A stretch of DNA of 33,964 bases from an uncultured Mycoplasmatota bacterium (GTDB lineage: Bacteria > Bacillota_I > Bacilli_A > RF39 > UBA660). Position 1 is the first letter of the stretch. Every line of letters begins with the position of its first letter. A program made the position numbers and the translations under genes. This document shows, piece by piece, positions 14,949 to 33,084 of this stretch. The DNA lies in contig CAMNRN010000005.1 in the NCBI GenBank assembly GCA_946553095.1, forward strand, positions 1 to 33,964. The letters are read 5' to 3'. The notes beneath the pieces were generated by a model that saw only the letters and a list, made by a program, of their open reading frames with translations, was not told the DNA's origin and ran no database searches.

Positions 14949-14964
14949 GACATCAGTTTAAGCA

Positions 14965-15018
14965 TTTGGTACACAATTGGTACAATAATTTTAGGCATTG
15001 TATTTCTTGTGTACCAAA
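14965..15018. repeat. Inverted 12-mer TTTGGTACACAA with an extra direct half copy
   Basis: TTTGGTACACAA (14965-14976) and its exact reverse complement TTGTGTACCAAA (15007-15018) are 30 bp apart. A shorter copy, TTGGTACAA, lies at 14977-14985, 11 bp after the first. The core 8-mer also occurs twice, as TGTACCAA, in the probable oriT (28488 and 28722). Confidence 0.7.
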
Positions 15019-15061
15019 ATAGCAAAAACTATTGTCTAGGGTTTAAATTATAATAACTTCA

Positions 15062-16642
15062 TTATATCTTAATTCTAGGCTCTAATGGGTCGATTTTTAT
15101 AGTATGATATAGAGCTTGAAATCCATCAAAAATGTGGTCAATCTCATCATCATCTAACACATTATCAATTTTCATAATTTTGTCAAATATAGGAAACAAC
15201 TCTCTAAAATAATTTTGACAGCGTTCTAATTGTATATCATAATTAGAATCATCAATAAACTCATTTCCTATTTTTTCTAACACACTTACTAACTTCTTAT
15301 TATCAGTAAATCGATTGGAAACAATACGATATAGGTCAGCCATATTTAATCCTAATTTATTATAAAATTCTTCCTCATATAACTGAACTAATTTTTTATC
15401 TTCATTATAATTAGCCTGTGCATAATAGGTTAGAGTAGTTTCTATATTTTCATGACCAACACGGTTTTGAATAGCCTTTAAGTTTTTTCCATGAGCAACA
15501 TAAAAAGATGTATTAGTAGCTCTCATATTTTTTAACGGTACTTCTTTTTTGAGACCTATTTTTTGAATAAACAATTTAAATTCTCTAGTATAGCGATCAG
15601 GGTCAACAATATCCATACTGTCCCATGCAGTAAAAATAAAATCATCATCGTTAACTACGAATCCACAAGCCTCTTTAAATTTTTTATAATTTTTTAACAA
15701 CTCTAAAACATAGCTCGTACAAATAATTTCTCTTTCACTTTTCTTTCGTTTAACAGGCTTAATTATATAACGATTATCTATTTTAGATTTAACAAACGCT
15801 CTTTCAATACTAACAGTTCCTCTAAACCAATTTATATCACTCCATTTTATTGCAAGAGCCTCTTCTCTACGACAACCCATATCCATCATAAAAGTAATGA
15901 GAGTTTTAAATCGAATATTCTCAAATTCTAGCTTTTCCTTTATATAATGCATTTCTTCATCAGTAAAGTATTCTTTATCTTCAGCAACAGCCTGTGGCTT
16001 TCTCTTTACATTATCAAAGGGATTACTAGATATTATTTTAAGGTCATTCTTAAAATAATTAAAAACTTTATGCACAAAAGAAAAGGGTTTATAAATTGTA
16101 TTCTCTGACAATCTTTTACCTTTATTTTTACCTTTAGTAGCAGGTCTATCCCATAAATAATCTACAAAACCTTGTGCATAATCATCATCTACTTTATTAA
16201 TAGGAACATCAAAAATGCCATAATCTAAAAGATATTTACTATTTTTAAAATCATAAATATCATTTTCATAAGTAGAAACCTGTATAAATTCTCTATCATG
16301 GTCTTTTTTTCTTTCCTTTAAATAAAGCTCTATACCATCACTTACTAAATTATATTTAGTTATTTTCCCTTTGGATTCGTTTATAGTTTCTTCTTTTTCT
16401 TTAATCTCTTTTTGATCTATCTCAATTTGCTCGAGCATTTCATATTTTATTCTTATTGCCTCTAATAAATTATGAACCAATTTTGTTCTTCGTTTATCAA
16501 AAGCAGGAATAGATATTCTAAAATCAGTTGAACTAGTTTCAGTAATATACTTTAAATCTTCATCCGTAATACCCAAGCGTTTAGCTTCGCTATAAGAAAT
16601 AGAAAAACGGTCAACAACTTTTTTGTTTAAAAGTTTGGCTAT
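15062..16642 (-). CDS. int: Tyrosine recombinase, element integrase (ATA start)
   Basis: 526 residues from the proposed ATA at 16640-16642. Catalytic residues (numbered from it): R258 in GCRREEA, Lys candidates near 298-301, KNMR at 371-374 (the first His of H-x-x-R is Lys), H397 in VGHENIETT and Tyr at 406 or 407. An extra ~100-residue C-terminal region follows, and a Glu/Lys coiled coil lies near 70-95. The only standard start is a TTG at 16576, without an SD. The ATA lies 8 nt after GGAGG, two codons past an in-frame TAG, and overlaps the excisionase stop as ATAG. It sits beside the tRNA-Trp fragment, so it is the likely element integrase. Confidence 0.9.
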   Translation of the reverse strand: MAKLLNKKVVDRFSISYSEAKRLGITDEDLKYITETSSTDFRISIPAFDKRRTKLVHNLLEAIRIKYEMLEQIEIDQKEIKEKEETINESKGKITKYNLVSDGIELYLKERKKDHDREFIQVSTYENDIYDFKNSKYLLDYGIFDVPINKVDDDYAQGFVDYLWDRPATKGKNKGKRLSENTIYKPFSFVHKVFNYFKNDLKIISSNPFDNVKRKPQAVAEDKEYFTDEEMHYIKEKLEFENIRFKTLITFMMDMGCRREEALAIKWSDINWFRGTVSIERAFVKSKIDNRYIIKPVKRKKSEREIICTSYVLELLKNYKKFKEACGFVVNDDDFIFTAWDSMDIVDPDRYTREFKLFIQKIGLKKEVPLKNMRATNTSFYVAHGKNLKAIQNRVGHENIETTLTYYAQANYNEDKKLVQLYEEEFYNKLGLNMADLYRIVSNRFTDNKKLVSVLEKIGNEFIDDSNYDIQLERCQNYFRELFPIFDKIMKIDNVLDDDEIDHIFDGFQALYHTIKIDPLEPRIKI

Positions 16643-16956
16643 GTTCTATTCCTCCAACTCTCAAGTTTTTCGGGAATATCATTTACAACTTTCTCATGAT
16701 TTTTAGCAAGATAATCATCAATGTCACCTAAACTAAAATATCTTTTATTTCCAATCCAAGTTACCTTTAATTGACCGTTATTTATAGCATTCGTTAATAT
16801 GTGTTTCGATAACATAGGATATAAATCTATAACCTGATTAATACTATACAAATCTTCATCTCTTGTTTTTTCTATTGAAACACCATCTTCATATTCTTTT
16901 ATCAATTTACCAATTTCTAAAAGTAAATCTCCCAAAGATATTTTTCTATTATCTAT
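16639..16956 (-). CDS. Excisionase-like winged-helix/HTH_17 protein (ATA start)
   Basis: 105 residues from ATA at 16954-16956; 98 if the TTG at 16935 is used. The C-terminal half (DLYSINQVIDLY...LTNAINNGQLKVTWIGNKRYFSLGDIDDYL) is the MerR-like excisionase fold: a helix-turn-helix with a wing and a final 'ID-YL' helix. Such proteins direct element excision with the integrase, and this gene is directly upstream of int. The ATA follows GGAGGGG with 8 nt after GGAGG, and an in-frame TGA lies immediately before it. A nearby ATG (16958-16960) opens only a three-codon frame. Confidence 0.8.
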   Translation of the reverse strand: MDNRKISLGDLLLEIGKLIKEYEDGVSIEKTRDEDLYSINQVIDLYPMLSKHILTNAINNGQLKVTWIGNKRYFSLGDIDDYLAKNHEKVVNDIPEKLESWRNRT

Positions 16957-16973
16957 TCATCACCCCTCCAACA

Positions 16974-17375
16974 TTACAATCTTGATATATCATAGGTTTT
17001 TTCTAAATTTTTGGTAATAGTATCTATAACAAAATCTCTTGCTTTATTATGCATTTCTCGAGCCTTAACATCTTCAAATGAATAAGAATCTAAATCTGCA
17101 CCATCCCACATATTCATATTATTACAATTTATATGTTTCCCAATAATAATCTCAATATGGTTATTTATTTTTCTATCATTAGGAAGATAAGCCCAAATGC
17201 ATAAGTCAAGGTTCGGATTATATTTATCAAATAATTTTAAAACACAACCTTGTTCTTTACCATTATTAAAAATTTCAACTACTCCATCAGTATTTATTTG
17301 GTCTTTATATAGTTGATTAATAACAGCTTTGAATATATCTTCACTTTTCTTTACTTTTTCATTCCATACTATCAT
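16974..17375 (-). CDS. Accessory protein of unknown function, 'EQG/IW' family
   Basis: 133 residues, no signal or membrane segment. It contains EIFNNGKEQG, then LFDKY, IWAY and later MW, YSF and a C-terminal amphipathic helix. The same order of motifs occurs in the protein at 20120-20713 (EPFCDGREQG, SLYNQ, IWSC, YF), so the two look like distant paralogues. ATG start, overlapping the upstream stop as ATGA, with GAGG 10 nt before. It sits between the DUF4375-like gene and the excisionase in an accessory block with anti-restriction candidates. Function unknown. Confidence 0.7.
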   Translation of the reverse strand: MIVWNEKVKKSEDIFKAVINQLYKDQINTDGVVEIFNNGKEQGCVLKLFDKYNPNLDLCIWAYLPNDRKINNHIEIIIGKHINCNNMNMWDGADLDSYSFEDVKAREMHNKARDFVIDTITKNLEKTYDISRL

Positions 17376-18109
17376 ATCTTTATATCCTCATTTAATTCAG
17401 TTATTTTTTTTATATATTCATCAGGAATATTATCAACTAAATAGCGTTCAAAATAGTTTTTCCAGCTCTCTTGAATGGCAAAATAATCTTTATCATAATA
17501 TTTTAATGATTTTAGCCTTGTTTGACAATCTTCTTCGTACCAATCATCATTACGATTTAATTCTTCAATCGCTGTTTTTATATAAGAAAAATCATCGAGA
17601 ACTTGCATAAATTTGTTTTTATCATCATAGTCACAATCACAATTATCTAAAAAATTATAAAGATAGCCTAAATCATCGCTATAATTATTTTCATGCCATT
17701 GATATAAACCACCATTTTCAACATGATAATTAAAATTACCAAACATAACGGCTGTTTTTTCATAGTCAGTAAGTTTATTCAAAAACTCATCTCGATCGCA
17801 TCCATCTTCCCATTTTTTATATGACTCATCCATAATATATTGCCATAGAGAATCAATTTTTGAATAAATCATATCTTTAAAAACCTCAACTCCCATATTT
17901 TCTTTAAATTTAAAAAATTGAACTATGGAATCTACATTATTATTACGAATATACTCATTAAAATCTTTAACTTCATCATCCGAAAATTCTACATCAACTT
18001 TGGAACTATACATATTGTTAAATAATTTTGTTAATTTAACAATGTCTAAACTTTCTTCCATTAAATTCAAATAATTTACAATATTGTTTATATATATTTT
18101 ATTCTCTAT
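17372..18109 (-). CDS. DUF4375/DMP19-like protein, possible DNA mimic (ATA start)
   Basis: 245 residues, very acidic, from ATA at 18107-18109. The motif VENGGLYQWHEN (about 130-141) matches the DUF4375 signature NGG-x-Q-x-x-x-N. The founding member of that family, DMP19, mimics DNA and titrates a DNA-binding protein, so an anti-repressor or anti-defence role is possible, though not shown. The ATA lies 7 nt after AAGGAGG, overlaps the previous stop as ATAG, and an in-frame TAA stands five codons upstream. The alternative TTG (18070) has no SD. The C-terminus is EDIKI, part of the shared junction pattern. Confidence 0.7.
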   Translation of the reverse strand: MENKIYINNIVNYLNLMEESLDIVKLTKLFNNMYSSKVDVEFSDDEVKDFNEYIRNNNVDSIVQFFKFKENMGVEVFKDMIYSKIDSLWQYIMDESYKKWEDGCDRDEFLNKLTDYEKTAVMFGNFNYHVENGGLYQWHENNYSDDLGYLYNFLDNCDCDYDDKNKFMQVLDDFSYIKTAIEELNRNDDWYEEDCQTRLKSLKYYDKDYFAIQESWKNYFERYLVDNIPDEYIKKITELNEDIKI

Positions 18110-18264
18110 ATTTTTTCCTCCTTAAAATATTTATCCCACTCATCTATATTAAAGAATCTACGATGATAAAGGATATATCGTATTTTCAAATTAAAAGGGG
18201 ATACCATCAAATAACGGTGTCCCCAAAACTTAATCCATTTCCATTTATTTTTAGTTATTCTCAT
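18106..18264 (-). CDS. Small basic, Trp-rich protein
   Basis: 52 residues, rich in Trp, Arg, Lys and Phe (WKWIKFWGHRY near the start, YHRRFFNIDEW near the end). It starts with ATG overlapping the ArdC-like stop (ATGA), 8 nt after AGGAG. Its TAG overlaps the next gene's ATA (ATAG), so it fits the operon without gaps. No known family is recognised. Its basic, aromatic make-up contrasts with its very acidic downstream neighbour. Confidence 0.6.
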   Translation of the reverse strand: MRITKNKWKWIKFWGHRYLMVSPFNLKIRYILYHRRFFNIDEWDKYFKEEKI

Positions 18265-19304
18265 ACTTTTAACTCCTGATAAACATCAGCCCATAAGCCT
18301 AAATTTTCATCATACATTTTCTTATAATTAGAAATAATTTTTTTTGAATTATTGACTATCATACTTAAAGAATCTTCTATTTCTTTAAAGTCTTTTTCTT
18401 TACTCCATGAATAAAGATAATTCATAGAATAACCACCTGTATCTAAACCTAAATATTTTGATACAACATAAGCAATTGACTCTGCCTCGGTTTCATATTG
18501 ATTTCTATGTTCTTCATACTCTATATTATTGTTTTTTAAATGTTGATGAGCAAGACCATGAGCATATTCATGAACGATAACTTTCAATCGCATAAGATTA
18601 CTTAATCCTTTTCTAATAGCGATAGTATTTGTTTCAAAATCACAATAGCCTTTAGCTCCATCTTTTATATCTTCATATTTTACTTTAAATCCATCTTTAT
18701 AAATTGCTTTAATAAATGTATCAGCAACACCATCTGCAGATGGGTCTTCTAAAACTGGATTTAATTCTTCCTCGATCGCATCCATAGGCATATTAGTATC
18801 AGTTACACTAAAGACATTACCTAATCCAAAGCCTGATAACTTTTGTTTATGAAAAACAACTCGATTATTAGTTTTATCTTTATACATTTGTTTTTCTTCA
18901 TTTGTTAATGCAAAATATGGTTTATAAGAAACACTTTCATCATCAGCTATAATTTTGGCTATATTATAAAACTGGGGCATATAAACTTTAATGCCATCGT
19001 AATCACCTTTATTTACATTATAACCCATCTTATTGAATGTTGTTTTAGATGCAACATATTGGGCTGTAGGGTCTTGTAACCATATAAGCAATTGATTATT
19101 GAAAGAGTAATTATTAAAATTGACAAGATTATCTAAAAACTTCTTAATATCACTTTCACTACTAAATTTTTTAATCGCCTCTTGTTTTAGTTCATAAATA
19201 ATATTTTTTAATTCATCTTCGATTCGTTCTTTTTCGGCGTCATCTTTTGTTTTACGAAATTCAAATCCAAGATCGTTAATTTTCTTTAATTTTTCTTCTA
19301 TTAT
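18261..19304 (-). CDS. ArdC-like anti-restriction protein with zinc peptidase domain (ATA start)
   Basis: 347 residues from ATA at 19302-19304. The N-terminal part shows the ArdC/DUF1738 pattern: NFNNYSFNNQLLIWLQDPTA, then ASKTTFNKMGYNVNKGD. A C-terminal metallopeptidase carries HEYAH at about 245-249 and an acidic helix (TEAES) near 272-276. ArdC-type proteins protect incoming DNA against restriction. A standard start exists only at TTG 19091, inside the conserved N-domain; the 71 codons before it contain no ATG, GTG or TTG. The ATA stands 8 nt after AGGAGG, and an in-frame TAG lies five codons upstream. This is one of the strongest cases for ATA initiation. Confidence 0.88.
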   Translation of the reverse strand: MIEEKLKKINDLGFEFRKTKDDAEKERIEDELKNIIYELKQEAIKKFSSESDIKKFLDNLVNFNNYSFNNQLLIWLQDPTAQYVASKTTFNKMGYNVNKGDYDGIKVYMPQFYNIAKIIADDESVSYKPYFALTNEEKQMYKDKTNNRVVFHKQKLSGFGLGNVFSVTDTNMPMDAIEEELNPVLEDPSADGVADTFIKAIYKDGFKVKYEDIKDGAKGYCDFETNTIAIRKGLSNLMRLKVIVHEYAHGLAHQHLKNNNIEYEEHRNQYETEAESIAYVVSKYLGLDTGGYSMNYLYSWSKEKDFKEIEDSLSMIVNNSKKIISNYKKMYDENLGLWADVYQELKV

Positions 19305-19316: not shown

Positions 19317-19754
19317 CTATATTCCTATATGACCATCATCAAGGTCATTTTTTTCATTATTTTTTTGATAATAAATATTTTTTACCTTATCGTAAATTTC
19401 ATCTATTGGCATATCATAATATGAATGAATAATGTTGATTACTTTGGAAAAATCACCAGTATAATAACACTCGTGATTATTTAACTCATATCGAATTAAA
19501 TCATCTATATTTATCCTTGATACAAAATCTTTTTTTAACTTTGGGGCAGTATTCTTTAAAAAGTTATCCAGTTTTTCTTTATTGGATTTATGAATATAAC
19601 CACCTGCACCAACTGAAATATACTCGTTATCAGGAGCATCTTTATGAGTTTTATTTTCATCAAACTGGTCATTACCAAAAGCCCAAAATACTCCTGTTTT
19701 ATTTAACTCTTTATTAAAATTATCATCATATTCTTTTTTTATTTCTTCAAATAT
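19317..19754 (-). CDS. Accessory protein resembling DUF7659-type plasmid/phage proteins (ATA start)
   Basis: 145 residues. The first ATG codon in frame is at residue 115, so no standard start gives a gene. The reading frame is open from ATA (19752-19754), which follows AGGAGG by 8 nt and an in-frame TAG by one codon, down to TAG at 19317. The protein reads as a real one: KTGVFWAFGNDQF, then SVGAGGYIHK, which recalls small plasmid/phage proteins with 'FAFs-x-QF ... GaGGY'. I recall these as DUF7659, with moderate certainty. It ends GHIGI and then GAGG, the shared junction. Function unknown. Confidence 0.75.
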   Translation of the reverse strand: MFEEIKKEYDDNFNKELNKTGVFWAFGNDQFDENKTHKDAPDNEYISVGAGGYIHKSNKEKLDNFLKNTAPKLKKDFVSRINIDDLIRYELNNHECYYTGDFSKVINIIHSYYDMPIDEIYDKVKNIYYQKNNEKNDLDDGHIGI

Positions 19755-19766: not shown

Positions 19767-20111
19767 CTAAATACTTATATCACTAAAATCTAAATGATAT
19801 TTTTCCTTTAAAATGTCTAGTGCCTCATTATAGACATAATCTTTGATTTCACTATCACCAAACATAATATCAAGTGATTCATCAATAAGTTTTTTATCAA
19901 AATTATTATATGATAAGTCTGCAAGTCTATTAGCACATACTTCAATAATTGGATTTTCACTTATTGATACATCTCTAGCATCTAACCATTCGGGAGTTAA
20001 CTCCAAATCAGGATAGTCTTCTTCAGCAATTTTTAAAGCTTCATCTAAATTATCAGTATCTATTTTCATCGTTTTTTCCAAAACTATTTTTACATCAATA
20101 TATTTAGCCAT
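19767..20111 (-). CDS. Accessory protein with the 'KYH' C-terminal domain
   Basis: 114 residues, acidic, soluble. ATG start 5 nt after AGGAGG. The N-terminal half (MAKYIDVKIVLEKT...) is not recognised. The C-terminal ~60 residues (LADLSYNNF..., then DYVYNEALDILKEKYHLDFSDI) resemble the ends of the proteins at 28782-29018 and 29036-29536, so a small domain is shared by three genes in two parts of the element. It ends SDISI followed by TAGGAGG. Function unknown. Confidence 0.7.
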   Translation of the reverse strand: MAKYIDVKIVLEKTMKIDTDNLDEALKIAEEDYPDLELTPEWLDARDVSISENPIIEVCANRLADLSYNNFDKKLIDESLDIMFGDSEIKDYVYNEALDILKEKYHLDFSDISI

Positions 20112-20119
20112 AATACCTC

Positions 20120-20713
20120 CTAAATTTTTATATTTAATTCTTTTCCTAAAAATTGATTTACTTGTGAAAGAGAGAAGTCGATAGCATCATCAAAATTATC
20201 CTTACTAAAATATTGAGCTTTCTCTAAATCATCCTGCATATAAAGATTTTGATTATTTTTTTCTTTAGAAGTAATAACCATTAAATCTTTATCCGTTTTT
20301 GATTCGCAAGACCATATATAAAATTGGTCGTCTGTTAACTGGTTATAAAGGGATAACATCAATCCTTGCTCTCTACCATCACAAAAAGGTTCAATACTTC
20401 CATAGATATCTTTTTGATATGGTTGTAATTGCTTAATCAAACGATTTATAAAAATTTCACTTGTTTGTAAACTGCTCGTTTTAGTAATATCAATTCTATT
20501 ACTAACTTTTTCTAAATAATCACACACTTTTTGACTATTATTGTTTTCAATATCTATAGTACATATAGCCCAATCCTCTTTTGTCAATTTAATCCTTGAA
20601 TCAGGATATACAGAGTCATAGAATGTTTGTAACTCTTCATGAGTAATAGTTCTTTTTAAACTGTTATAATGATTGACTATAACATCAACATAATTTTTTT
20701 GATTTTTTTCTAT
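20120..20713 (-). CDS. Accessory protein, 'EQG/IW' family (ATA start)
   Basis: 197 residues from ATA at 20711-20713, 7 nt after AGGAGG (a second ATA directly precedes it at 4 nt). The only standard start is TTG at 20587, 42 codons in and without an SD. The regained N-terminus (YVDVIVNHYNSLKRTITHEELQ) is helical and protein-like. The C-terminal half carries EPFCDGREQG, SLYNQ and IWSC and matches the protein at 16974-17375 in motif order. It ends LNIKI then TAGGAGG. No enzyme motif is seen. Confidence 0.72.
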   Translation of the reverse strand: MEKNQKNYVDVIVNHYNSLKRTITHEELQTFYDSVYPDSRIKLTKEDWAICTIDIENNNSQKVCDYLEKVSNRIDITKTSSLQTSEIFINRLIKQLQPYQKDIYGSIEPFCDGREQGLMLSLYNQLTDDQFYIWSCESKTDKDLMVITSKEKNNQNLYMQDDLEKAQYFSKDNFDDAIDFSLSQVNQFLGKELNIKI

Positions 20714-20724: not shown

Positions 20725-21096
20725 CTATATTTTTATATTTTTTGTTAAATCATCTATATGGGTAACAATATTATCTAAACAATCATCCTCGAGTGGGTCA
20801 AAGGTAGTATAATTTAAACGGTCATCTTTATAAACATTAATCCATCTACTGCAATCATGCTCAATAAAGATATTCATATTTTCATCATTTAAGACATACA
20901 CCATAACAGGGAAGTCTTCTCTATATTTTGAAAGAGAATATTTATTTTTTAAATTTGATATAACATCATCTCTTATTTTATTCTCGGACTCAACTTCTTT
21001 TATACAATTTGTTATTTCACTTTCACTAAATCCAAATTGCTTTAACAAATCGGGTGCAACTTTGTCAAATTCTTTTTTTGTTTTACTATAATTTAT
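20725..21096 (-). CDS. Accessory protein of unknown function (ATA or ATG start)
   Basis: 123 residues from ATA at 21094-21096 (7 nt after AGGAGG), or 125 from the ATG at 21102, which lies only 1 nt after AGGAGG and is badly placed. The N-terminal ~65 residues are helical and charged (FGFSESEITNCIKEVESENK). The rest is beta-rich with FPVMVYVLNDENMNIFIEHDC and a Trp. It ends KNIKI followed by TAGGAGG. No family is recognised. Confidence 0.65.
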   Translation of the reverse strand: MNYSKTKKEFDKVAPDLLKQFGFSESEITNCIKEVESENKIRDDVISNLKNKYSLSKYREDFPVMVYVLNDENMNIFIEHDCSRWINVYKDDRLNYTTFDPLEDDCLDNIVTHIDDLTKNIKI

Positions 21097-21108
21097 AATC
21101 ATTCCTCC

Positions 21109-21954
21109 TTAACTAATATATTTTCTATGTGAAAATTTCACATTACTTTGATTAACCATTGCATAATGCATTGTTGTATCAATTTTTGTATGACCTAATA
21201 ATTTTTGTACTTGTTCTATTGGCATTCCTTTATCAATAGCTGTAGTTGCCATAGTTCTTCTAAATTTATGGGGATGAACTTTTTTTATATTTAGTTTTTT
21301 ACCCATATTTCTAATAATGCTTTCAACTGCTGATATTGTAATTCTATGATATGGTTTTATTTTTGAAACAAAAAGAGCTTTTTCTTCATCAGTTCTTAAA
21401 TTCAAGTATTGTTGTAAATGAATTTTTGTTCTTGCATCAAAATAAACTTCTCGCTGTTTATTTCCTTTGCCTAGAACTATACAAGAGCGATCTTCAAAAT
21501 TTACATCATCAATATTTAAATTTACTAATTCACCAACTCTCATTCCTGTTGAAATAAATAATTCTATTATTGCTAATTCTCTAACATGAGAACATTCATC
21601 TCTTAAATTTTCTATATTTTCATCCGTTAAAGTTTCTTTTACAACGATAGCTGTTTTCACTCGATGAATTCTTCTAACAGGACTTTTTAATATATAATCT
21701 TCATCTTCTAACCATGAGAAAAAACTTGAGAATATTCTTCTAATATTATCCATTGTTACGGAACTACAATTACTTTCTTCCTTATATTTAGATAAATATA
21801 AACGGATATCATCAGTTGTTATTTCTCTTATAGGTTTATCAACATCTTTGATAAACTTTAAAATAATATCTTTATAATATTTGATTGTTCTATTGGAACA
21901 ACCCTCAATATCTTTTGCAGATAAAAACATATTCATAAAATCTTCATTACTTAT
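21109..21954 (-). CDS. XerC/D-like tyrosine recombinase (probable ATA start)
   Basis: 281 residues from ATA (21952-21954), 275 from the ATG at 21936. Numbered from that ATG: SAM-like N-terminal domain at 1-90, catalytic R133 (TGMRVGEL), K158, H223-x-x-R226, H249 and Y258, all present. It has the compact length of XerC/XerD-type and small ICE recombinases. The ATA follows AAGGAGG by 11 nt, longer than in the other genes, and an in-frame TAA is three codons upstream; the ATG has no SD of its own. First gene of the integration/accessory block, directly behind the hairpin leader at 21984-22011. It may resolve or invert DNA in the element; its target is unknown. Confidence 0.88.
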   Translation of the reverse strand: MSNEDFMNMFLSAKDIEGCSNRTIKYYKDIILKFIKDVDKPIREITTDDIRLYLSKYKEESNCSSVTMDNIRRIFSSFFSWLEDEDYILKSPVRRIHRVKTAIVVKETLTDENIENLRDECSHVRELAIIELFISTGMRVGELVNLNIDDVNFEDRSCIVLGKGNKQREVYFDARTKIHLQQYLNLRTDEEKALFVSKIKPYHRITISAVESIIRNMGKKLNIKKVHPHKFRRTMATTAIDKGMPIEQVQKLLGHTKIDTTMHYAMVNQSNVKFSHRKYIS

Positions 21955-22470: not shown

Positions 22471-23862
22471 CTATTTAATAGAAAAGTAACTTTTTGTTTT
22501 ATCTAACTGTATATTTTTTAAAATAGCCATTTCTTCAACAGTTACAAAAGCATATCCTTCATTTTGTAATTTTTCCATAGCTAGTAAAGCACCGTCTACG
22601 GATGTTTCATATAAATCATGTAATAATACTATTGCACCATCATGGGCATTTTCAACTATATAATTTGCTATCCTATTTGCATCTTTATATTTCCAATCTT
22701 CTGTATCAAGATCCCATAAAATGGTATACATATTAGATATTTCTTTTATATTAGAGTTGATATTCCCATAAGGTGGTCTTAAATAAATAGTTTCACCATT
22801 AACTACATTTCTTATGGCATCATTAGTTTTCCTTATTTCATTTGTAACTGCATAATCATCTAGCTTTAAAAGATTTGAATGACTATAAGTATGACTACCA
22901 ATCAAATTTCCCATATCATAAGCCCTTTTTAATGTATCTTTATAATTATTTACACGATTACCTAAAACAAAAAATGTTACACGAGCATTGTATTTATCTA
23001 AATTTTCCAACAATTTATTTGTTCCAATATAACTAGGACCATCATCAAATGTAAAAGCAATTAACTTTTTATTGCTAAACTCTTTTAAATTTCTTTTTTG
23101 TTTATTAGTAATATTTTCCGCTTTGCTATATTTTAAATATTCTTCTTTTATTATTCCATTGAGTTCACTATATGGAATTAATATTTTTACCTCGCCCGCC
23201 GCATAATACGCAACTTGATATGGTGGAAATACTATTTCTAAACCATCATCAATAAAGTTGAAATATTCAAAATTTTCTGGTTTACTTTCTAAACCACTTT
23301 TAGCCATTTCTTCATCAAAATCTAAATTATTATCATTGCTATACTTCATAACATAATAGTATGAAAGACTCGATAATCGGTCTAAAGATTTATCGTTTGC
23401 TAAAAAATCTGTAATTGACACTATCTTATCTTCATTTTTATTGTAATAATAAGATTTATCACTTCTCATATAATGATTCCCACCAGTATATTCATAGACT
23501 GTTAAATGAACTCCTAAAACATCTTCGTTCTCACTTATTTTGTAATCTGTTTTAAACTCATATTTACTTGAATTCATATTTTCTAAATCCTTTATAACAT
23601 TTTTGAACTCTTCTTCTTTTTTCTGTAAATATTCATTTGTGTAAGCTAATATATTTTTGTTATTTAATTTAGGATAATTGATTTCAATTAAATAATTATT
23701 TGCTTCTTCTTTATAATTATCTGTTTTTCCTTTTCCAAATAAATTGTGATTAGAGTTATTAACATATAAACTTAAAAATCCAATCATTAAAATTATTGTA
23801 AAACAGAAAAATATTTTTCCGAATTTTGTTAATCTTCTTTTATGACTTTTTCTGTATTCCAT
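22471..23862 (-). CDS. PdaC-like membrane-anchored polysaccharide/peptidoglycan deacetylase
   Basis: 463 residues: basic N-terminus, one membrane helix (about 15-34), a DUF4163/DUF3298-type region (about 50-235, with YTGGNHYM) and a NodB deacetylase domain (about 265-455). NodB motifs: TFDDG (271-275), the zinc motif H324-x3-H328 (SHTYSH), RPPYG (362-366), the W-containing DTEDW (386-390) and LLHD (413-416). All catalytic residues are present. The order DUF3298-DUF4163-NodB is that of Bacillus PdaC, which deacetylates peptidoglycan and gives lysozyme resistance. ATG start with GAGGTG; own promoter. As cargo of the element it may remodel the host wall or protect it. Confidence 0.9.
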   Translation of the reverse strand: MEYRKSHKRRLTKFGKIFFCFTIILMIGFLSLYVNNSNHNLFGKGKTDNYKEEANNYLIEINYPKLNNKNILAYTNEYLQKKEEEFKNVIKDLENMNSSKYEFKTDYKISENEDVLGVHLTVYEYTGGNHYMRSDKSYYYNKNEDKIVSITDFLANDKSLDRLSSLSYYYVMKYSNDNNLDFDEEMAKSGLESKPENFEYFNFIDDGLEIVFPPYQVAYYAAGEVKILIPYSELNGIIKEEYLKYSKAENITNKQKRNLKEFSNKKLIAFTFDDGPSYIGTNKLLENLDKYNARVTFFVLGNRVNNYKDTLKRAYDMGNLIGSHTYSHSNLLKLDDYAVTNEIRKTNDAIRNVVNGETIYLRPPYGNINSNIKEISNMYTILWDLDTEDWKYKDANRIANYIVENAHDGAIVLLHDLYETSVDGALLAMEKLQNEGYAFVTVEEMAILKNIQLDKTKSYFSIK

Positions 23863-24000: not shown

Positions 24001-25785
24001 TTACTCAAGTTCAAACTTGTTATTAACAGCCTTTAAAGTTTTTTCTTTCCTAAATTCATCTAAATTAAAACATGATATTTCAAATATCTTTTTCTTATTA
24101 GGAAGTTTTGTCATTTTAAAATTTATTGGATAATCACCAATAGGCTTAACAATAGCTTTAACAGGATACATCCTGGACTTCATAAATATAGCCTCGCCAA
24201 ATTTTAATTTCATCAACTCATCAGGCATCATTAACTCTCTTCCCATAAGTGATTTATCATTAGAAATATTATAATCTAATTGTTCTAAACGGGAAGAAGT
24301 AGAAACTCTAGCACTTGAAATTGTATATTTTCCTAAACGAGAACTAATTTCTTTAGCTGACTCATTATCCGAAGTAAGAAGATAAATCCATGAAGTATTA
24401 GATTTAATCGTTCCTGCCGACTCCTTGTATTTTTCTTTTAACTGGTCAAAATCCTGAATTACCAATACAAAACGAATATTACGAGAGCGTGAAACAGTAA
24501 TTTTATTAGACATAGAGTTTATTGGTGGCATGTTACATACCTCATCCAAAATAAAATTTACTCGTATTGGCATTCTTCCATTTGATAAAGCCTGTGCAGT
24601 ATTAACAAGTGCCTGATAACATTGATCGACAAACAAAGATGCAAGTTCATGTCTAGACTCTTTCTCATCAGGAATAATAAGAAATACTGCTGTTTTCTTT
24701 TTTCCAATATCATCTAACTCAAAATCAGTACGACTGGTAAGGTTAGCAATACCTGTATCACTAAACATTTTAATTGTTGTAGCAAGAACGGAAAAAAGAG
24801 TAGCACGAGTTTCACCTTTGGCAAACGAACCAGTAGCATAAGCCATCTTTGATAAAGAACCCATGGGCTTTTGTTGAAAATATAAATCTAACGAATTAAA
24901 TCTATCAATTGTTTTAGAGCCATGTTCAACAAGAAGATTATACAAAGAAAAAAGGTTAACTTCTGCCTCTGAATGAGCATCTTCGATTAATGCATAGCAT
25001 AAAGCAGATAATACTGCATTCGCCGATTTTTCCCAATACATATCTTTAGAAGAAAGATTTTTACATAATGATTTAGAAAAGTTTTCTATAATATCACCTG
25101 CAAGATCGATATTATTTTCGTTATAATATTTATAAGCAAGATGTAGTGGGTTCCAACCATCGGATGCAAAAGCATCTCTTAAGTTAATAACTCGTATATT
25201 ATATTTTTGTTTTTTTAGAAAATCAGCTGTATAGTTATAAAGCTCACCTTTGGTATCATTAATAACCATAGACTCACCTGCGTAGCCAAGATTAAATAAC
25301 ATAGGAAGTATCTCACATTGAGTTTTTCCTGAACCCGTAGAACCAATAATAAGAGTGTGATCGAATGAATCGGAATAATAAAATTTCCCATCTTGATATG
25401 TTACAGGAATCCCACCACTAGAAAGTTTAGAACCAATATTCCATGCTTTAAATTCGTGTTTGATTTCCTTTTTTGTCATCCATCTAGCACTACCATATTC
25501 AAAAGAACCATCTTCTTCGGGAAGTCCTTTTTTTCTATTCAATTTTAATTTAAACTCTTTATCATATTTTAGTACAAATAACATAACCAAAATTATCAGT
25601 AGAGATGTACCAAAAAATAATCCATAATCACTCAAAGCGAGTGTTGTTTTAATTAAATTAAAATTCCATGATAGCTTAATATCATTCTTAATAATATTTA
25701 CTAGATTATAGCAGACATTTGCTGATAATACAAAGCCTATAATAAAAATGAGAATATAATTAAAATATTTTTTAAAATTTACTAT
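24001..25785 (-). CDS. VirD4/TraG-family coupling protein of the element (ATA start)
   Basis: 594 residues from ATA at 25783-25785. Two membrane helices at about 9-26 and 55-75, Walker A GSTGSGKT at 148-155, Walker B (ILDE) at 412-415 followed by VCNMPPI. The first helix exists only if translation starts at the ATA; the nearest standard start (TTG 25635) would leave a single helix and has no SD. The ATA is 8 nt after AGGAGG, two codons after an in-frame TGA, and overlaps the upstream TAG as ATAG. It is related to the left coupling protein (shared WNPL, WEKSA, FILDE motifs) but lacks its long tail. It should dock the relaxosome to the channel. Confidence 0.92.
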   Translation of the reverse strand: MVNFKKYFNYILIFIIGFVLSANVCYNLVNIIKNDIKLSWNFNLIKTTLALSDYGLFFGTSLLIILVMLFVLKYDKEFKLKLNRKKGLPEEDGSFEYGSARWMTKKEIKHEFKAWNIGSKLSSGGIPVTYQDGKFYYSDSFDHTLIIGSTGSGKTQCEILPMLFNLGYAGESMVINDTKGELYNYTADFLKKQKYNIRVINLRDAFASDGWNPLHLAYKYYNENNIDLAGDIIENFSKSLCKNLSSKDMYWEKSANAVLSALCYALIEDAHSEAEVNLFSLYNLLVEHGSKTIDRFNSLDLYFQQKPMGSLSKMAYATGSFAKGETRATLFSVLATTIKMFSDTGIANLTSRTDFELDDIGKKKTAVFLIIPDEKESRHELASLFVDQCYQALVNTAQALSNGRMPIRVNFILDEVCNMPPINSMSNKITVSRSRNIRFVLVIQDFDQLKEKYKESAGTIKSNTSWIYLLTSDNESAKEISSRLGKYTISSARVSTSSRLEQLDYNISNDKSLMGRELMMPDELMKLKFGEAIFMKSRMYPVKAIVKPIGDYPINFKMTKLPNKKKIFEISCFNLDEFRKEKTLKAVNNKFELE

Positions 25786-26366
25786 ATATCATACCTCCTA
25801 GTATTATTTTGTAATTGATTAAGAGAACAACTATTATTTAAAAGTTCTTCTAAAAATAATCCACCATTATATAAAGAAACTACTTTACTATGAATTCCCA
25901 ACTTGGGATAGGTAGAATCTAAAATTACATTGTCATCTTTCATTTTTAATCTTTCATACTCTGATAGATTATCTTGGTATTTTTCAATAAGGGAATCATT
26001 TACTAAAAATCTCATCATTCCTTGGACTTTTTTCATTTCATTTTTACGAAATGGATAGAGAGCAGGAAATTCCATAGAGTCATCCTTATATTTTAAAAAT
26101 AGACAATGTTTTTTATCAACAGGTAATGACTGAATTAACAAATCTCTATCTAAACCCATGGAATAATTTTCTCTTAAAAATTTATTTAAAGAGAAACTTC
26201 TCATATCTAAATTTTGGTCTAATAGATTTCGATTGAGAGAAAGATTATAATTCACCAACATAAAATCCATAATATAATTTATTGTTTTTGTTTTAGCATC
26301 CATCGAATCATTCCCACACAACATATCAGTATTATTTAAATCTCTAGTTATATCCACAATATACAT
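25782..26366 (-). CDS. Relaxase-associated protein, possibly the detached C-terminal part of the relaxase
   Basis: 194 residues, ATG overlapping the relaxase stop (TAATG). It contains a central PALYPFRKNEMKKVQGMMRF stretch, and YERLK and other charged helices. No catalytic motif is recognised. Its place directly after the relaxase, and the sum of the two lengths (about 677), close to single-chain relaxases of gut Firmicutes as I recall them, suggest it is the relaxase C-terminal region made as a separate chain. That is an inference. It ends RRYDI, and its TAG overlaps the ATA of virD4. Confidence 0.6.
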   Translation of the reverse strand: MYIVDITRDLNNTDMLCGNDSMDAKTKTINYIMDFMLVNYNLSLNRNLLDQNLDMRSFSLNKFLRENYSMGLDRDLLIQSLPVDKKHCLFLKYKDDSMEFPALYPFRKNEMKKVQGMMRFLVNDSLIEKYQDNLSEYERLKMKDDNVILDSTYPKLGIHSKVVSLYNGGLFLEELLNNSCSLNQLQNNTRRYDI

Positions 26367-27817
26367 TATTTACTATAATCACCATCCAATTCATATTGCA
26401 GTTCATTTACAATTTGTTTTTCTTCTTGTTCCAATTCATACATCAAATGATTAACAGCTTGATTGATAAATCGCTTATAATTAAGTTCACGATAAAAATT
26501 TTTGTTTTTAATTTTATTATATCGATTAGAATCATAACCTAATCTTTTTAATGCATCATAATATTCTTTAATAGACATTTCATTATCTAGTGAAGAAATA
26601 GAAGAAACCAAAGAATCTACATCATAATCATATTTTGATTTTTTTATCCATCTTTGAAATACTTTTTTTATTTGATTGTTGTTAAGATCTGCAATTTTAC
26701 ATATTTTATATAAATCTTTTGCGATACTTCTTTTAGTATCATCTTTGACATAATCACTTTTACTCTTAAAATCGAGTTCATGAATATGCTTTTTTAAAAA
26801 CTCTTTTTCTCGTTCCATAAAATCCATAGCTTGATATCTTTTATAGTTTTGTAATATTTCATTACCTATTTTAGAGTACAAACGATTTAACTGGTCATTA
26901 TAGTATTTTCTTTTTTTATTACTATCCGACTGACCATATAAATCATTCAGCTCTTTTTGATGTTGTTCGAGTAGTCTTAAATATTTTGCATAATCATATT
27001 TAACGGAATCATGCAGAAGAATGTACTCGATAATGGTATTTAAATCTTTTTTATACATAATCATATTTTTAGAATTATATTGAAGTCTACCTGTTTTAGG
27101 TAAGGTATTATAAAAATTCAATAACATTTTATTTAAGTCCTTACGATATTTATCACTAAATAGCCTTTGACTTCTAATCCTATTTAATTCTTTTTTACTT
27201 ATCGTACCTGTTATATTTGTAAAAGTCTGATCACGAAGTTCATAAAATTTTTTATTATCAATTAAATAATTAGCAACATTACTCTTACAATTATAGATAA
27301 CTGACTTTGGATACTGTCCCACTTTTTTGGTAGGAACTTTCTCATAAATACAAAAATGAATATGGGGATGAGTAGGAGTATCACGATGCAAGGAACACAT
27401 CCACTCCACATTGTTAATATCCAAACCCATGTCCACAATCAAAGATGGCATAATATTATTAGTAAGACTATAAAAATCAATCTTTGTTACCAGACCATGT
27501 TCCAAAGCAAAGTCGGATGGAAAAGAGAGAAAGCCTCGCCAAAAGATACCTTTATCATTCATACCATTTAATTTGTCGATCGCATCTTTCTTTAAAATAT
27601 CCCCATTTGATGTCCATAAAAATGTCTCATCCTCTTCCGTTAAGTAGGAATCTTTATTAGAGAATAATGCATAATCTTTTAAAAGATTATATTCATCTAT
27701 ACTGGAAGAATCGGCTTTTTGTTTTTGAGATGCATAACTTATCCATTTTGAAATACCAACTCGTTTATTTTTAGGAGTTTTATACTCCATGTTAAAGACA
27801 ATTGCACTCTTACTCAT
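26366..27817 (-). CDS. MobL/MobP-like conjugative relaxase
   Basis: 483 residues. The three-His metal motif is HRDTPTHPHIHFCIYEK (H144, H150, H152 and H154), the form seen in the MobL/MobP3 relaxases of low-GC Gram-positives. A possible nicking Tyr is Y28 (WISYAS) near the N-terminus, but this is not certain. After about residue 210 the protein is helical and Lys/Tyr/Asn-rich. It would nick oriT and lead the strand into the recipient. ATG start overlapping the upstream ribbon-helix-helix gene's stop (ATGAGTAA). The probable oriT lies upstream at 28412-28781. Confidence 0.85.
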   Translation of the reverse strand: MSKSAIVFNMEYKTPKNKRVGISKWISYASQKQKADSSSIDEYNLLKDYALFSNKDSYLTEEDETFLWTSNGDILKKDAIDKLNGMNDKGIFWRGFLSFPSDFALEHGLVTKIDFYSLTNNIMPSLIVDMGLDINNVEWMCSLHRDTPTHPHIHFCIYEKVPTKKVGQYPKSVIYNCKSNVANYLIDNKKFYELRDQTFTNITGTISKKELNRIRSQRLFSDKYRKDLNKMLLNFYNTLPKTGRLQYNSKNMIMYKKDLNTIIEYILLHDSVKYDYAKYLRLLEQHQKELNDLYGQSDSNKKRKYYNDQLNRLYSKIGNEILQNYKRYQAMDFMEREKEFLKKHIHELDFKSKSDYVKDDTKRSIAKDLYKICKIADLNNNQIKKVFQRWIKKSKYDYDVDSLVSSISSLDNEMSIKEYYDALKRLGYDSNRYNKIKNKNFYRELNYKRFINQAVNHLMYELEQEEKQIVNELQYELDGDYSK

Positions 27818-28235
27818 CTTCTAACTCTTTCTTTTTAGATGACATTTTTCTTAAATCTTTTAGTACCAACTCTTCAGCTTTTTCCGTAATAGGATGTGGA
27901 ATAACTGATACATTAAGTTCTTCTTTCGTTTGTGGCACTTTTAAATGTTGCATAAAAATATCTTGTTGTTTTAGTAGCCAACGAGAATCGAACTCAATTC
28001 TATTTTGTACCACTATTAGCTGTTTAAAGAAAGGTTCAAAACTTTTCTTAAAAGCCACATCAAATAGATTTAAAAATTGTGATTGACTATCATTTAATTT
28101 ATTAGTCTGCATTTTCTCTCGTACTGCTTGATAAATAAACTCCGATAGTTTCATATTACATTTTTCAGCAAACAAAGTTATCTCGTTTTTTTCTTCAGGA
28201 CTAACTCTAAAATTTACAATAGCATCTTTTTTTAT
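27810..28235 (-). CDS. MobC-like ribbon-helix-helix relaxosome protein (ATA start)
   Basis: 141 residues from ATA at 28233-28235. The first 20 codons, lost if the TTG at 28175 is used, encode DAIVNFRVSPEEK, the beta strand and turn of a ribbon-helix-helix, followed by helices ending KLSEFIYQAVREKM: a textbook MobC/CopG N-terminus. The C-terminal half is helical. The ATA is 6 nt after AAGGG, directly follows an in-frame TAA, and overlaps the upstream stop as ATAA. It lies between the second ribbon-helix-helix gene and the relaxase, as expected for an oriT-binding nicking accessory. Confidence 0.85.
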   Translation of the reverse strand: MKKDAIVNFRVSPEEKNEITLFAEKCNMKLSEFIYQAVREKMQTNKLNDSQSQFLNLFDVAFKKSFEPFFKQLIVVQNRIEFDSRWLLKQQDIFMQHLKVPQTKEELNVSVIPHPITEKAEELVLKDLRKMSSKKKELEDE

Positions 28236-28411
28236 TTAGATCCCTTATCACTTGGAATAATTAAATTCAAATTTTTAAGAACAAAATCTTTTACTGCATC
28301 TTCGATTAAATCTTGTTGGGTCATTTTCTTTTTAGTAAGGATTTGTTTTAAGACTTCAAAAAGAGTGGCATCCACTCGACCTTTTAAAACACAACTTTCA
28401 TTATTATTTAT
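28232..28411 (-). CDS. Small ribbon-helix-helix DNA-binding protein (ATA start)
   Basis: 59 residues from ATA at 28409-28411, 8 nt after GGAGG. The upstream in-frame ATG (28426) forms part of the SD itself (ATGGAGGTGAT), so it cannot be the usual start. The sequence VLKGRVDATLFEVLKQIL, then TQQDLIEDAVKDFV, fits a ribbon-helix-helix dimer unit. It directly borders the oriT-like region with six TGTWTTAC iterons and a GGTACA palindrome, which it or MobC may bind. Autoregulation is possible. Confidence 0.75.
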   Translation of the reverse strand: MNNNESCVLKGRVDATLFEVLKQILTKKKMTQQDLIEDAVKDFVLKNLNLIIPSDKGSK

Positions 28412-29035: not shown

Positions 29036-29536
29036 TTAAATTTGAATATTTACACTATATTCAATATGATATTTTTCATTTAAAATATTTATTGTTTTAT
29101 AGCATATATCATCAACTAAATTATTATCATCTATACGATGTTTTACAATTCCGTGAACAAAATTATAGTTAACTGAATCTAATCCACGAGAATTTAAGAT
29201 ATTAAAAATTTCATGAGCAAGCATTTCGGAACTAGATTTTACTTCTTCAGTTTCAAAAATCATATTATTAAAATTTAAAATATCTATACTTGAAAGAGTC
29301 TTACCATCTTCATGTACAACTTGATATGAATAGTTATTTATAAATGAATCATAGCTTATCTCTTTATCATCCGACCCATCCTCGTTACCCTCAAAAACTT
29401 TTATAATTTCTTCACTATTGTTAAATAATGCAACACCATCTTGATTAGTTTTATAGTTATGAGTAGATAACATATAATTAGAATCAATGTATAATATTTC
29501 TTTAATTTTTTTTAATTCTTTTAATTTATCTTCTAT
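29036..29536 (-). CDS. Accessory protein with C-terminal 'KYH' domain (ATA start)
   Basis: 166 residues from ATA at 29534-29536, 8 nt after AGGAGG; the first in-frame ATG (29473) is 21 codons later with no SD. The N-terminus is a Lys/Glu helix (KLKELKKIKEIL). The middle (about 30-95) has phenylalanine/valine strands with acidic turns. The C-terminal ~65 residues (SEMLAHEIFNIL, VKHRIDDNNLVDDI, INILNEKYHIEYSV) match 28782-29018. It ends VNIQI followed by TAA and AGGAGG. Function unknown. Confidence 0.72.
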   Translation of the reverse strand: MEDKLKELKKIKEILYIDSNYMLSTHNYKTNQDGVALFNNSEEIIKVFEGNEDGSDDKEISYDSFINNYSYQVVHEDGKTLSSIDILNFNNMIFETEEVKSSSEMLAHEIFNILNSRGLDSVNYNFVHGIVKHRIDDNNLVDDICYKTINILNEKYHIEYSVNIQI

Positions 29537-29548: not shown

Positions 29549-30124
29549 CTAATATAAACCATAAATAATAAAATGTGGGTCAATTAAGTCCACACTATTA
29601 AATGAAATTTTATTTTTCATAATCATAAAATGAAGATGGCATCCTGTACTAGCTCCTGTTGAACCAACTTGTCCGATTTTTTGACCTTTAACAATTGGCT
29701 CATCTTTTTCTACAACAATAGAATCATCGAGCATATGTCCATAAGCCGAATACAAAATGCCATTACTTGTTTGATGTTTTACATAAACATAGTTACCTAA
29801 ACCTATTTCACTAAACCCCACTTCATAGACTACACCATCCACACTTGCAAGTACATCAGTACCACAAGCTGAACCTAAATCTATTCCCGAATGGAATTTT
29901 GTTTCACCACTACCTAATGGATCTAATCTATATCCAAAAGGCGAAGTTACAGTAAAGGAACTACTAGATGTGAATGGAATCGAGAAATCATCATTGGCAA
30001 CAACGACAACTGCCTCGCCACCACTTGATGATTGACTACATAAAAGAGCGAGAAAGAGTACCAAAAGAAAGGGTAAAAATACTCCTCCTCCCAACATCAA
30101 ACCTATCTTTTTTATTTCATCCAC
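29549..30124 (-). CDS. Membrane-anchored M23 peptidase of the element's conjugation machine
   Basis: 191 residues: one membrane helix at about 8-28, a Ser-rich linker and a LysM-type M23 domain at about 55-175. The zinc and catalytic residues H78-x3-D82, H130, H163 and H165 (HLHF) are present, so it should cut peptide cross-links outside the cell. It is much shorter than the left wall hydrolase and has no lysozyme part. GTG start overlapping the VirB4 stop (TAGTG) with AGGTGG 6 nt before; this is the only clear GTG start in the element. Its stop runs into AGGAGG of the next gene. Confidence 0.88.
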   Translation of the reverse strand: MDEIKKIGLMLGGGVFLPFLLVLFLALLCSQSSSGGEAVVVVANDDFSIPFTSSSSFTVTSPFGYRLDPLGSGETKFHSGIDLGSACGTDVLASVDGVVYEVGFSEIGLGNYVYVKHQTSNGILYSAYGHMLDDSIVVEKDEPIVKGQKIGQVGSTGASTGCHLHFMIMKNKISFNSVDLIDPHFIIYGLY

Positions 30125-32496
30125 TAACGACCACCTGCAGTACCAAATAAATCTTTTTCTTCTTGGCGAAGATGAATTTGGATAGGCAATCGTGTATCTT
30201 GACTAATAACAAACAAACCTTGACCCCTAGATGCAGTAGTTAAAAATTGCATCTCGGACTCACTTAAGTTCATCATATATTTAACAGCCTCGATTTCTTT
30301 TTGACCTTGAGCCATAATTAAAAGATATGCACTATTATCGATGATAACCTGTCCATATCTCTCTAAACCAACAGCACTAAAGTCTATAAAATTTTGCGAA
30401 ATGTTCCATACACCACAATTATATTTACGAGCTCGTTTATTACATTTTTTCAAGAAATCTGCTCCATCAGGATTGTTAGGGTCGATAAGTAAATGTTCTT
30501 CATCGCAAACAAGGATAACCTGTTCATCACGATTTTTACTAATCTCATTCCAACACCAAGATAGAATATTAAAAAATTGAGATTTTAAAATAACATCATC
30601 GGAATCAACCAAACTATGAATATCTAGTACAATAAAATCAGTATCTTCATTTACATGAATAGAAGAAGTGCCATTGAATATTCTAGCATCTGCTCCGATC
30701 GTAGCTCGTTTTAACATGGAACTAATTTTTTCTAATGACTCGATAACATTACGAGCCTCTTTATTATGTTTGGCTTTATCCAAAGTTTCTTTTGTCTTGT
30801 TATATAAATCTTGCATAATGGGATAATCTTCACTTTTAAATTTAGATAAGTCGGTATCAAAATCGATACCTTTATCTTTATAAACCTCAATCAAAATTTC
30901 TTCAATTTTAGTAAGTTCATAAGCACTCAAGTCTTGAAGATAATATTTTATGAAAGTTCTAAAAGTTTGGAAATGCCTAGATAAATCATTATGGACATTA
31001 CCTGAATCATCACCATCATCAGCACCTTTACGAACCTCAAGAGGGTTCAAGATGCCTGAAATACCTGTACCACAATCTATCCAACAGCCTCCGATATTTT
31101 CGCACAAATCTTTATACTCTCGTTCAGGGTCTATGATAATAACTTTAGAACCACGACACCAAACACCTCGTACTAATTTTTTTATCAAAGTAGATTTCCC
31201 TGACCCTGATTTACCAACAATAACTGCATTACTATTATTTCTTTTGTTACTTCTTTTCCAAAGGTCGAAGAATAGTAGACCACCAAGGGCATCATTACCT
31301 AACATGATAGCATCGCCATCATCTTGTAAATTTTGAAAGATAAAAGGAAATGATGATGCAGTAGTCATCATTGGAATTGGTAGACAATATTGTTTTTCTA
31401 AATCGGAGTACATAGTAGGTAAACACATTTTTAAAGAACGCTCTTGTTCGAACATTAAATCAGCTCCACCTAAACCATAAGCTGAAAGAGTAGACTTAAG
31501 TTCCTTTTTTGTTCTTTCCATCTCTTCTTTAGTTTCACCATAACATAGAAAATTGACAGTAAGAATAGAAAACTTTTCATGCTCACGATCAATACGATTA
31601 ACAAGTTCTACAAAATCCTGCATTTGATTATTAAAAAGAATTTGATCGTTATAATCATTAACATTAATCATTTTAGATTTAAGTTCGGACATACTTTTTT
31701 TAAGAGTATTACTGATTTCTTGCGTATTAGTAGGACTAATAGTCATAACCATACGCGTATGATGAATATTAGCAACTGCACCAAGCCATCCAACACTTAC
31801 CATAGATGGATAGGAAATAAGAGTAACAATACTTACATGAGCATCACCTAATATTAAGTCTTTTTCATTGATTTTAAGCCCTTTGGGAGCGATTCGCTCT
31901 TTAAATGAACGGTTTATAGTAGTTGCATCTTTTTTGAAAATATCAAGAGAAGAAACGGGATTTAACATAACATATAAAAGTTCTCGCCATTCTTCACTAC
32001 AAACCTTTTCGGCATGAAGTCCCATAGCTGAAAATTCCTGAACCAAATCATTTATTTTTTGACTTAATAATGTTTCATTTTCTGCATCTTCTTCAATGAT
32101 AAGATAAAATTCTCGATTAACAACCGATTTTTTGTTATTAAGACTATTGATAAAATCATAATCTTCTTCTAAAAGTTTTGTCTTATATTTATTAGTTTCT
32201 TGTTTTATTTTAGAACCTAGAATGTTTAAATTATTTTCAAGATTAATTGGCTTATCAATACAAAACAACTTTACCTTATAATCAATGGAATTTAAAACTT
32301 TCTTTAATTGACTAACCTTTGTTTGCTGTTCTTCATCAAATAAAAGAGAAAGATTAATTGATCCAATTTTGATTCCACCAATAATCTTATTATTATCTAA
32401 AAAAACATAATTGTTCCAAACTTCATTAAATGGAACAAAATCTAATATGGTTTTAGGAAGTTTTTTATTTTTAACTTTGCTTTCCTTATCCCTTAT
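30124..32496 (-). CDS. VirB4-family conjugation ATPase (ATA start)
   Basis: 790 residues from ATA at 32494-32496. Walker A GKSGSGKS is at 428-435 and Walker B (ILVCDE) at 661-666. The first 76 residues exist only with the ATA start and align with the left VirB4 N-terminal protein (FVPFNEVW, DNNKIIGGIKIGSIN, NSIDYKVKLFCIDKPINL against WLPIKQIL, DDGSFVTGIKVMPKN, NSIDFEFWLLIADRPVDI). No ATG, GTG or TTG occurs in those codons before TTG 32268, which cuts into the conserved domain. The ATA is 8 nt after GGGAGG and overlaps the upstream stop as ATAA. It powers channel assembly and transfer. Confidence 0.94.
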   Translation of the reverse strand: MRDKESKVKNKKLPKTILDFVPFNEVWNNYVFLDNNKIIGGIKIGSINLSLLFDEEQQTKVSQLKKVLNSIDYKVKLFCIDKPINLENNLNILGSKIKQETNKYKTKLLEEDYDFINSLNNKKSVVNREFYLIIEEDAENETLLSQKINDLVQEFSAMGLHAEKVCSEEWRELLYVMLNPVSSLDIFKKDATTINRSFKERIAPKGLKINEKDLILGDAHVSIVTLISYPSMVSVGWLGAVANIHHTRMVMTISPTNTQEISNTLKKSMSELKSKMINVNDYNDQILFNNQMQDFVELVNRIDREHEKFSILTVNFLCYGETKEEMERTKKELKSTLSAYGLGGADLMFEQERSLKMCLPTMYSDLEKQYCLPIPMMTTASSFPFIFQNLQDDGDAIMLGNDALGGLLFFDLWKRSNKRNNSNAVIVGKSGSGKSTLIKKLVRGVWCRGSKVIIIDPEREYKDLCENIGGCWIDCGTGISGILNPLEVRKGADDGDDSGNVHNDLSRHFQTFRTFIKYYLQDLSAYELTKIEEILIEVYKDKGIDFDTDLSKFKSEDYPIMQDLYNKTKETLDKAKHNKEARNVIESLEKISSMLKRATIGADARIFNGTSSIHVNEDTDFIVLDIHSLVDSDDVILKSQFFNILSWCWNEISKNRDEQVILVCDEEHLLIDPNNPDGADFLKKCNKRARKYNCGVWNISQNFIDFSAVGLERYGQVIIDNSAYLLIMAQGQKEIEAVKYMMNLSESEMQFLTTASRGQGLFVISQDTRLPIQIHLRQEEKDLFGTAGGR

Positions 32497-33072: not shown

Positions 33073-33084
33073 ACTCATTCCTCC

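Follow-up and report, generated by a model that had tools for sequence, protein, structure and literature searches.

The 33,964 nucleotide stretch of DNA analysed here (the window) carries a gene of 145 codons on its minus strand (19317-19754) which begins with ATA and encodes a DUF7659 protein. The gene and its ATA start region are well supported by sequence analysis. The start is part of a broader conserved pattern, which includes about a dozen neighbours and counterparts in related elements. According to the best explanation, to which a probability of about two in three is given, the gene is real and belongs to an integrative conjugative element, and its AUA start is a conserved design of that element, which would be read by the ordinary initiator tRNA, rejected by IF3 and probably low in output.

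Identification of a DUF7659 gene with an ATA start

The frame runs from ATA (19754-19752) to TAG (19319-19317). In 5' to 3' order on the minus strand, AGGAGG (19768-19763) is followed by AA, an in-frame TAG (19760-19758), TTT and ATA, which places the TAG two codons 5' of the start and the AGGAGG 8 nt before it. The first-pass annotation had described a 145-residue frame after TAG TTT ATA with this AGGAGG 8 nt upstream, and the description was borne out, the strand being minus. The upstream gene ends at 19767, its stop overlapping the AGGAGG, and 12 nt separate that stop from the ATA. This upstream gene (19767-20111, minus strand, 114 amino acids) starts with ATG at a short distance of 4 nt from its own AGGAGG. 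When the DUF7659 frame was read through, its single in-frame ATG was found at codon 115 (19410-19412, minus strand), and GTG and TTG were absent from all 145 codons. The frame also contains one CTG (codon 62) and a second ATA (codon 5). This codon listing agrees with the earlier statement that no ATG precedes codon 115 and that no GTG or TTG is usable. The accompanying claim that ATA is required and not optional holds insofar as residues 1-114 cannot be made from any canonical start.

The Pfam match, homologue starts, frame length and codon score agree with the proposal of the first-pass annotation that this is a complete, real gene. When the entire 19-kb strand was resampled 40 times with a first-order Markov model, the longest stop-free run reached 107 codons, against 146 here. 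With the element's own genes as reference, codons 1-114 obtained a codon-usage score of +80 bits, against -112 and -221 for the other sense frames. The protein matched Pfam DUF7659 (PF24692) with 71 bits, above the gathering cut-off of 27 (E = 1.3e-19, residues 8-119, profile positions 4-123 of 135), and by this score it belongs to the family. Members of the family were detected by tblastn on plasmids of Vibrio, Salinimonas, Paraclostridium and Staphylococcus and also in phages. Full-length homologues starting at the same place had been suggested as a check, and they were found: ATG-started homologues in Paraclostridium and Vibrio coralliilyticus, both plasmid-borne, and in a related genome (L095, L093 and L033, respectively) have their N-terminus about 1-3 residues from the ATA, and other homologues start within about 8 residues of it in the alignment. 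The inspected homologues on plasmids and phages have canonical starts, whereas the window gene has ATA. In a closely related element (G003), the DUF7659 copy is decayed. It opens with ATG CTT GAA AAG ATA AGA AAT GAA TAC, which aligns to ATA TTT GAA GAA ATA AAA AAA GAA TAT of the window gene.

A single-sequence AlphaFold model of the protein showed a mean pLDDT of 77.8 with a confident helix from residue 2, which also speaks for the gene. A fold search against PDB and viral models gave no usable match, and sequence matches in PDB were set aside as a functional clue, being designed proteins only. In the viral contigs searched, relatives of the Paraclostridium homologue were found and none of the window protein. 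As the DUF7659 genes found here are located on plasmids, on phages and in this element, where the window copy adjoins an ArdC-like gene, our guess is that they are accessory or establishment genes of mobile elements, perhaps acting against host defence.

Organization of the integrative conjugative element

An integrase, an HTH excisionase, a MobL relaxase, VirD4 and a VirB4 ATPase occur together in this region, which identifies it as an integrative conjugative element. Its left boundary is near 15000, and the contig stops at 33964 before the element does, so that the right end is missing. The GC content of the element is about 25-33%. All the genes listed in this section are on the minus strand. 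At the left end, the tyrosine integrase (15062-16642) starts with ATA, as does its counterpart in L073; ATG is found in L045 and L049. The excisionase-like HTH_17 protein (16639-16956) has an ATA start, found in four of four elements. It is followed by an ATA-started gene for 245 amino acids (17372-18109), which is uncoupled, lying 151 nt from the upstream stop. The gene for an ArdC-N/IrrE-like metallopeptidase of 347 amino acids (18261-19304) starts with ATA and has the same layout as the DUF7659 gene, with the upstream stop inside AGGAGG and the ATA 8 nt further on. Beyond the DUF7659 gene and its upstream neighbour, ATA starts were found in genes for 197 amino acids (20120-20713) and 123 amino acids (20725-21096), the latter with an in-frame ATG 1 nt after GGAGG.

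The VirD4-like coupling protein (24001-25785) is ATA-started and belongs to the CD1115 family, with 362.6 bits against equivalog NF045973 (cut-off 250). The MobL relaxase (26366-27817) starts with ATG and has no strong Shine-Dalgarno sequence. ATA starts were also observed for genes of 59 (28232-28411) and 166 amino acids (29036-29536) and for the VirB4-like ATPase (30124-32496). The conjugation ATPases of Mycoplasma-type elements (VirB4, NF045975) and of the CD1115 type (VirD4, NF045973) are related to those of the window element. The window VirB4 differs from the Mbov_0397 family in that it scored 507 bits against equivalog NF045975, below the cut-off of 590. The contig ends after three more ATA-started genes, coding for 116 amino acids (32722-33072, again with an in-frame ATG 1 nt after GGAGG), an Imm51-like protein (33085-33459) and 124 amino acids (33470-33844).

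Common gene finders accept only ATG, GTG and TTG as starts. Standard gene finding would thus miss the DUF7659 gene, whose first in-frame ATG is codon 115 and which has no GTG or TTG, and other N-termini are trimmed, as in VirB4, which is reduced from 790 to 714 amino acids when read from its first canonical start. As a result, such elements probably contain more genes than are reported, and it is a fair inference, also drawn in the first-pass annotation, that their annotations lack whole genes.

ATA starts in the element and in the host chromosome

Starts were called by a strict rule, which requires GGAGG, a start codon 5-10 nt on and a frame opening at most 20 codons upstream. Ties were settled toward canonical codons, which makes the ATA count of the element conservative. 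By this rule, 15 starts with strong Shine-Dalgarno sequences were obtained in the element, 14 with ATA and one with ATG. The sampled host chromosome (about 380 kb) gave 55 starts, comprising 43 ATG, 6 GTG, 3 TTG, 2 ATT, 1 ATC and no ATA. The difference in ATA, 14/15 versus 0/55, is highly significant (Fisher P = 8e-14). In the whole host genome outside the element, GGAGG-N7-8-ATA was rarer than its reversed-pattern control (34 versus 68) and GGAGG-N7-8-ATG was enriched (125 versus 24). Among the chromosomal GGAGG-ATA sites checked, infC was the only clear gene start. A general host habit of starting genes with ATA is rejected on the basis of the 34 versus 68 control and of infC being the sole clear case among the outside sites checked. 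Sequencing error was rejected as the source, because the pattern is the same at many sites and in several independent assemblies. Reassignment of AUA to methionine was not supported, as ATA is an ordinary internal codon of the element at an isoleucine-like frequency (147 of 454 isoleucine codons).

Eleven of the 14 ATA starts lie between -4 and +17 nt from an upstream stop. For the genes at 20725 and 32722, the in-frame ATG 1 nt after GGAGG could formally be the start. A layout of the form GGAGG-N-ATG-ATT-ATA, in which an in-frame ATG or GTG 1 nt after GGAGG precedes the ATA, recurs at 32722-33078, at 20725-21102 and in relatives.

Conservation of near-cognate starts in related elements

Related elements whose VirD4 is 70-93% identical to that of the window were grouped as clade A. 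The same bacterial family contains at least a dozen genera with such elements, and an order-level sample contained none outside the family of the host. In the orthologues, protein homology was used to fix the frame and the sequence to locate the Shine-Dalgarno, and the in-frame codon 7-9 nt downstream was read. The 75 cases obtained in this way, which are not phylogenetically independent, comprised 47 ATA, 8 ATT, 1 ATC, 5 ATG, 4 GTA and 10 other codons. At least four of the 47 ATA cases are ambiguous with an in-frame ATG adjoining (gene 25782 in three relatives and gene 16974 in L038). Orthologues without such a Shine-Dalgarno mostly have ATG starts. The ArdC-like gene has ATA in 9/9 elements (8/8 orthologues). 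Most copies of VirD4 have ATA, ATC or ATT, and a few have GTA or an unclear codon at that spacing. The relaxase has ATG and no strong Shine-Dalgarno in all clade-A copies with a readable start. This conservation between elements suggests that the ATA starts are under selection.

In more distant elements (48-50% identity), the VirD4 and ArdC-like genes have the same starts behind AAGGGGG, and some of these VirD4 copies also carry an ATG 2 nt after the G-run. A second element is present in the same host genome (G000:C6:5823-7598). Its VirD4 is 48% identical, AAGGGGG replaces GGAGG as Shine-Dalgarno, and its VirD4 and ArdC-like genes likewise have ATA at 7-8 nt. In the VirD4 copy of G003 (L038 8660-8700), a run of seven A right after the ATA shifts the frame by one base near the start, and this run is either an assembly error or a length-variable tract.

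Initiator tRNA and infC of the host

Neither the window nor any of the clade-A loci yielded an initiator-like tRNA. The tRNA genes in these loci were only tRNA-Cys and tRNA-Gly near the integrase of G003, where the tRNA-Gly gene lies just beyond the integrase, and tRNA-Arg in L079; the window has none. Among the 26 tRNAs of the host, the initiator is a normal one (CAU) and a UAU anticodon is absent. Initiator anticodon loops were recovered from 11 of 13 host genomes; all of them were GGGCTCATAACCC (CAU), and none had the UAU form.

The host possesses the IF3 gene infC, which itself starts with ATA 8 nt after GGAGG. In related hosts, infC starts with ATA or ATC, and the spacing is almost unchanged. 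AUU, AUC and AUA starts are of the type which IF3 rejects, by which it regulates its own gene. Near-cognate, autoregulated infC starts are AUU in E. coli, AUC in Streptomyces and AUA in S. aureus. To our knowledge, AUA starts have been described in bacteria for a few single genes. In S. aureus, infC and ccpN start with AUA, and the AUA starts tested, those of ccpN and citZ, gave about 10-30% of AUG expression (PMC13009471). In Streptomyces, sigR has a GTC start behind a long Shine-Dalgarno and is repressed by IF3 (PMC5472188).

The element genes resemble these systems in part. They share with infC a strong Shine-Dalgarno and a near-cognate AUN start; however, infC is one housekeeping gene, whereas at least a dozen genes of a mobile element are concerned here, for which a response to IF3 is proposed. 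The sigR gene is similar in its non-canonical start after a long Shine-Dalgarno and its place in a coupled gene pair, but it is a single chromosomal regulator with another codon (GTC) and its IF3 response is experimentally shown. In ccpN and citZ of S. aureus, a low-GC Gram-positive, the Shine-Dalgarno before the AUA is likewise strong, and it is extended; unlike the element genes, they are isolated chromosomal genes (PMC13009471). A literature search for AUA starts across a mobile element returned no paper from the library that was searched.

Proposed mechanism and alternative explanations

The sequence carries the features of starts discriminated by IF3, namely a near-cognate start with a strong Shine-Dalgarno which is kept in relatives, and a host infC with such a start. 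The design shared by the element family consists of GGAGG, or sometimes GGGGG, as a strong Shine-Dalgarno 7-9 nt before AUA, or sometimes AUU or AUC, and this start is usually set just behind the stop of the previous gene. Most likely, AUA is decoded by the ordinary initiator tRNA of the host (anticodon CAU), with a third-position mismatch. The start would be held in place by the Shine-Dalgarno helix, and in most genes a ribosome which has just terminated would re-initiate there. Initiation by fMet-tRNA(CAU) at a low level is suggested because IF3 rejects AUU, AUC and AUA starts and because the tested AUA starts of S. aureus give about 10-30% of AUG output. The element proteins are probably made in small amounts, under control by IF3, since IF3 rejects such starts and infC of the host has the same signature; their output would probably rise when IF3 is scarce relative to ribosomes. 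The weak start would make expression host-dependent. These comparisons suggest that the element limits how much protein it makes by means of the weak type of start found at infC of its host. An extension, offered tentatively and more doubtful than the basic proposal, is that the whole element, in which nearly all genes with a strong Shine-Dalgarno have a start of the infC type, forms an IF3 regulon, in which transfer and integration would be gated jointly by the IF3/ribosome ratio of the host, without a regulator protein of the element's own. If control by IF3 is true, it would give a mobile element a simple means to sense the translational state of its host.

AUA might instead be tolerated through translational coupling without any regulation by IF3, a ribosome that stops in the next Shine-Dalgarno re-initiating at the nearest near-cognate codon. 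Most ATA starts indeed lie 10-17 nt past an upstream stop or overlap it by 4 nt, often as ATAG or ATAA. The genes at 17372-18109 and 28232-28411 (gap 370 nt) are nevertheless ATA-started though uncoupled, which speaks against coupling as the full account; their orthologues have ATA in the first case and ATA, ATT or TTG in the second. Moreover, chromosomal genes with strong Shine-Dalgarno sequences use ATG, and so do the relaxase and gene 25782 in spite of their tight coupling. Coupling as the sole cause is considered unlikely. Neutral drift is less probable still. It would require that ATG became ATA under G-to-A pressure in an AT-rich element and that a stronger Shine-Dalgarno made up for this, with no regulatory meaning. 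The low GC content and the strong Shine-Dalgarnos which accompany ATA are in line with this, but none of the 55 comparable starts in the sampled chromosome is ATA. The gene-by-gene conservation, with ATA kept in the ArdC-like gene (9/9) and the excisionase (4/4) and ATG kept in the relaxase at 53-80% protein identity, also argues against drift.

The two other explanations considered are very improbable. AUA might be read efficiently by an initiator tRNA with a UAU anticodon, or by some modified tRNA or factor that belongs to the element. A dedicated tRNA would account for the many AUA starts, and the right end of the element is absent from the contig; however, searches of the window, the fuller G003 copy, the other clade-A loci and the hosts revealed no such tRNA. 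The exchange of ATA for ATT or ATC in orthologues argues against it as well, as these codons are not expected to be read by a UAU tRNA. The DUF7659 frame might also be a chance open frame or a remnant which is not translated from ATA, in keeping with its sole close relative, in G003, being a broken copy. Against this stand the match to Pfam, the codon usage, the frame length and distant homologues whose N-termini begin at the same position. Weak initiation at AUA by the ordinary initiator tRNA therefore stays the preferred reading. In the mobile-element family described here, AUA starts are the rule for genes with strong Shine-Dalgarno sequences, and the elements are spread over a dozen or more genera within a single bacterial family. 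The conservation across elements, the difference from the host chromosome and the parallel with infC are additions beyond the first-pass annotation.

Other features of the element

The Imm51-like protein represents an immunity-type gene within the element, and it too is ATA-started. A polysaccharide deacetylase gene (PdaC/PgdA-like, 22471-23862) with an ATG start is carried as cargo. Near it is a second tyrosine recombinase (21109-21954), which has a 66% identical relative by a different conjugative element (L039). Just past the stop of the integrase, an imperfect hairpin, TTTGGTACACAA...TTGTGTACCAAA, was observed at 14953-15031, which is a possible att-site arm or terminator.
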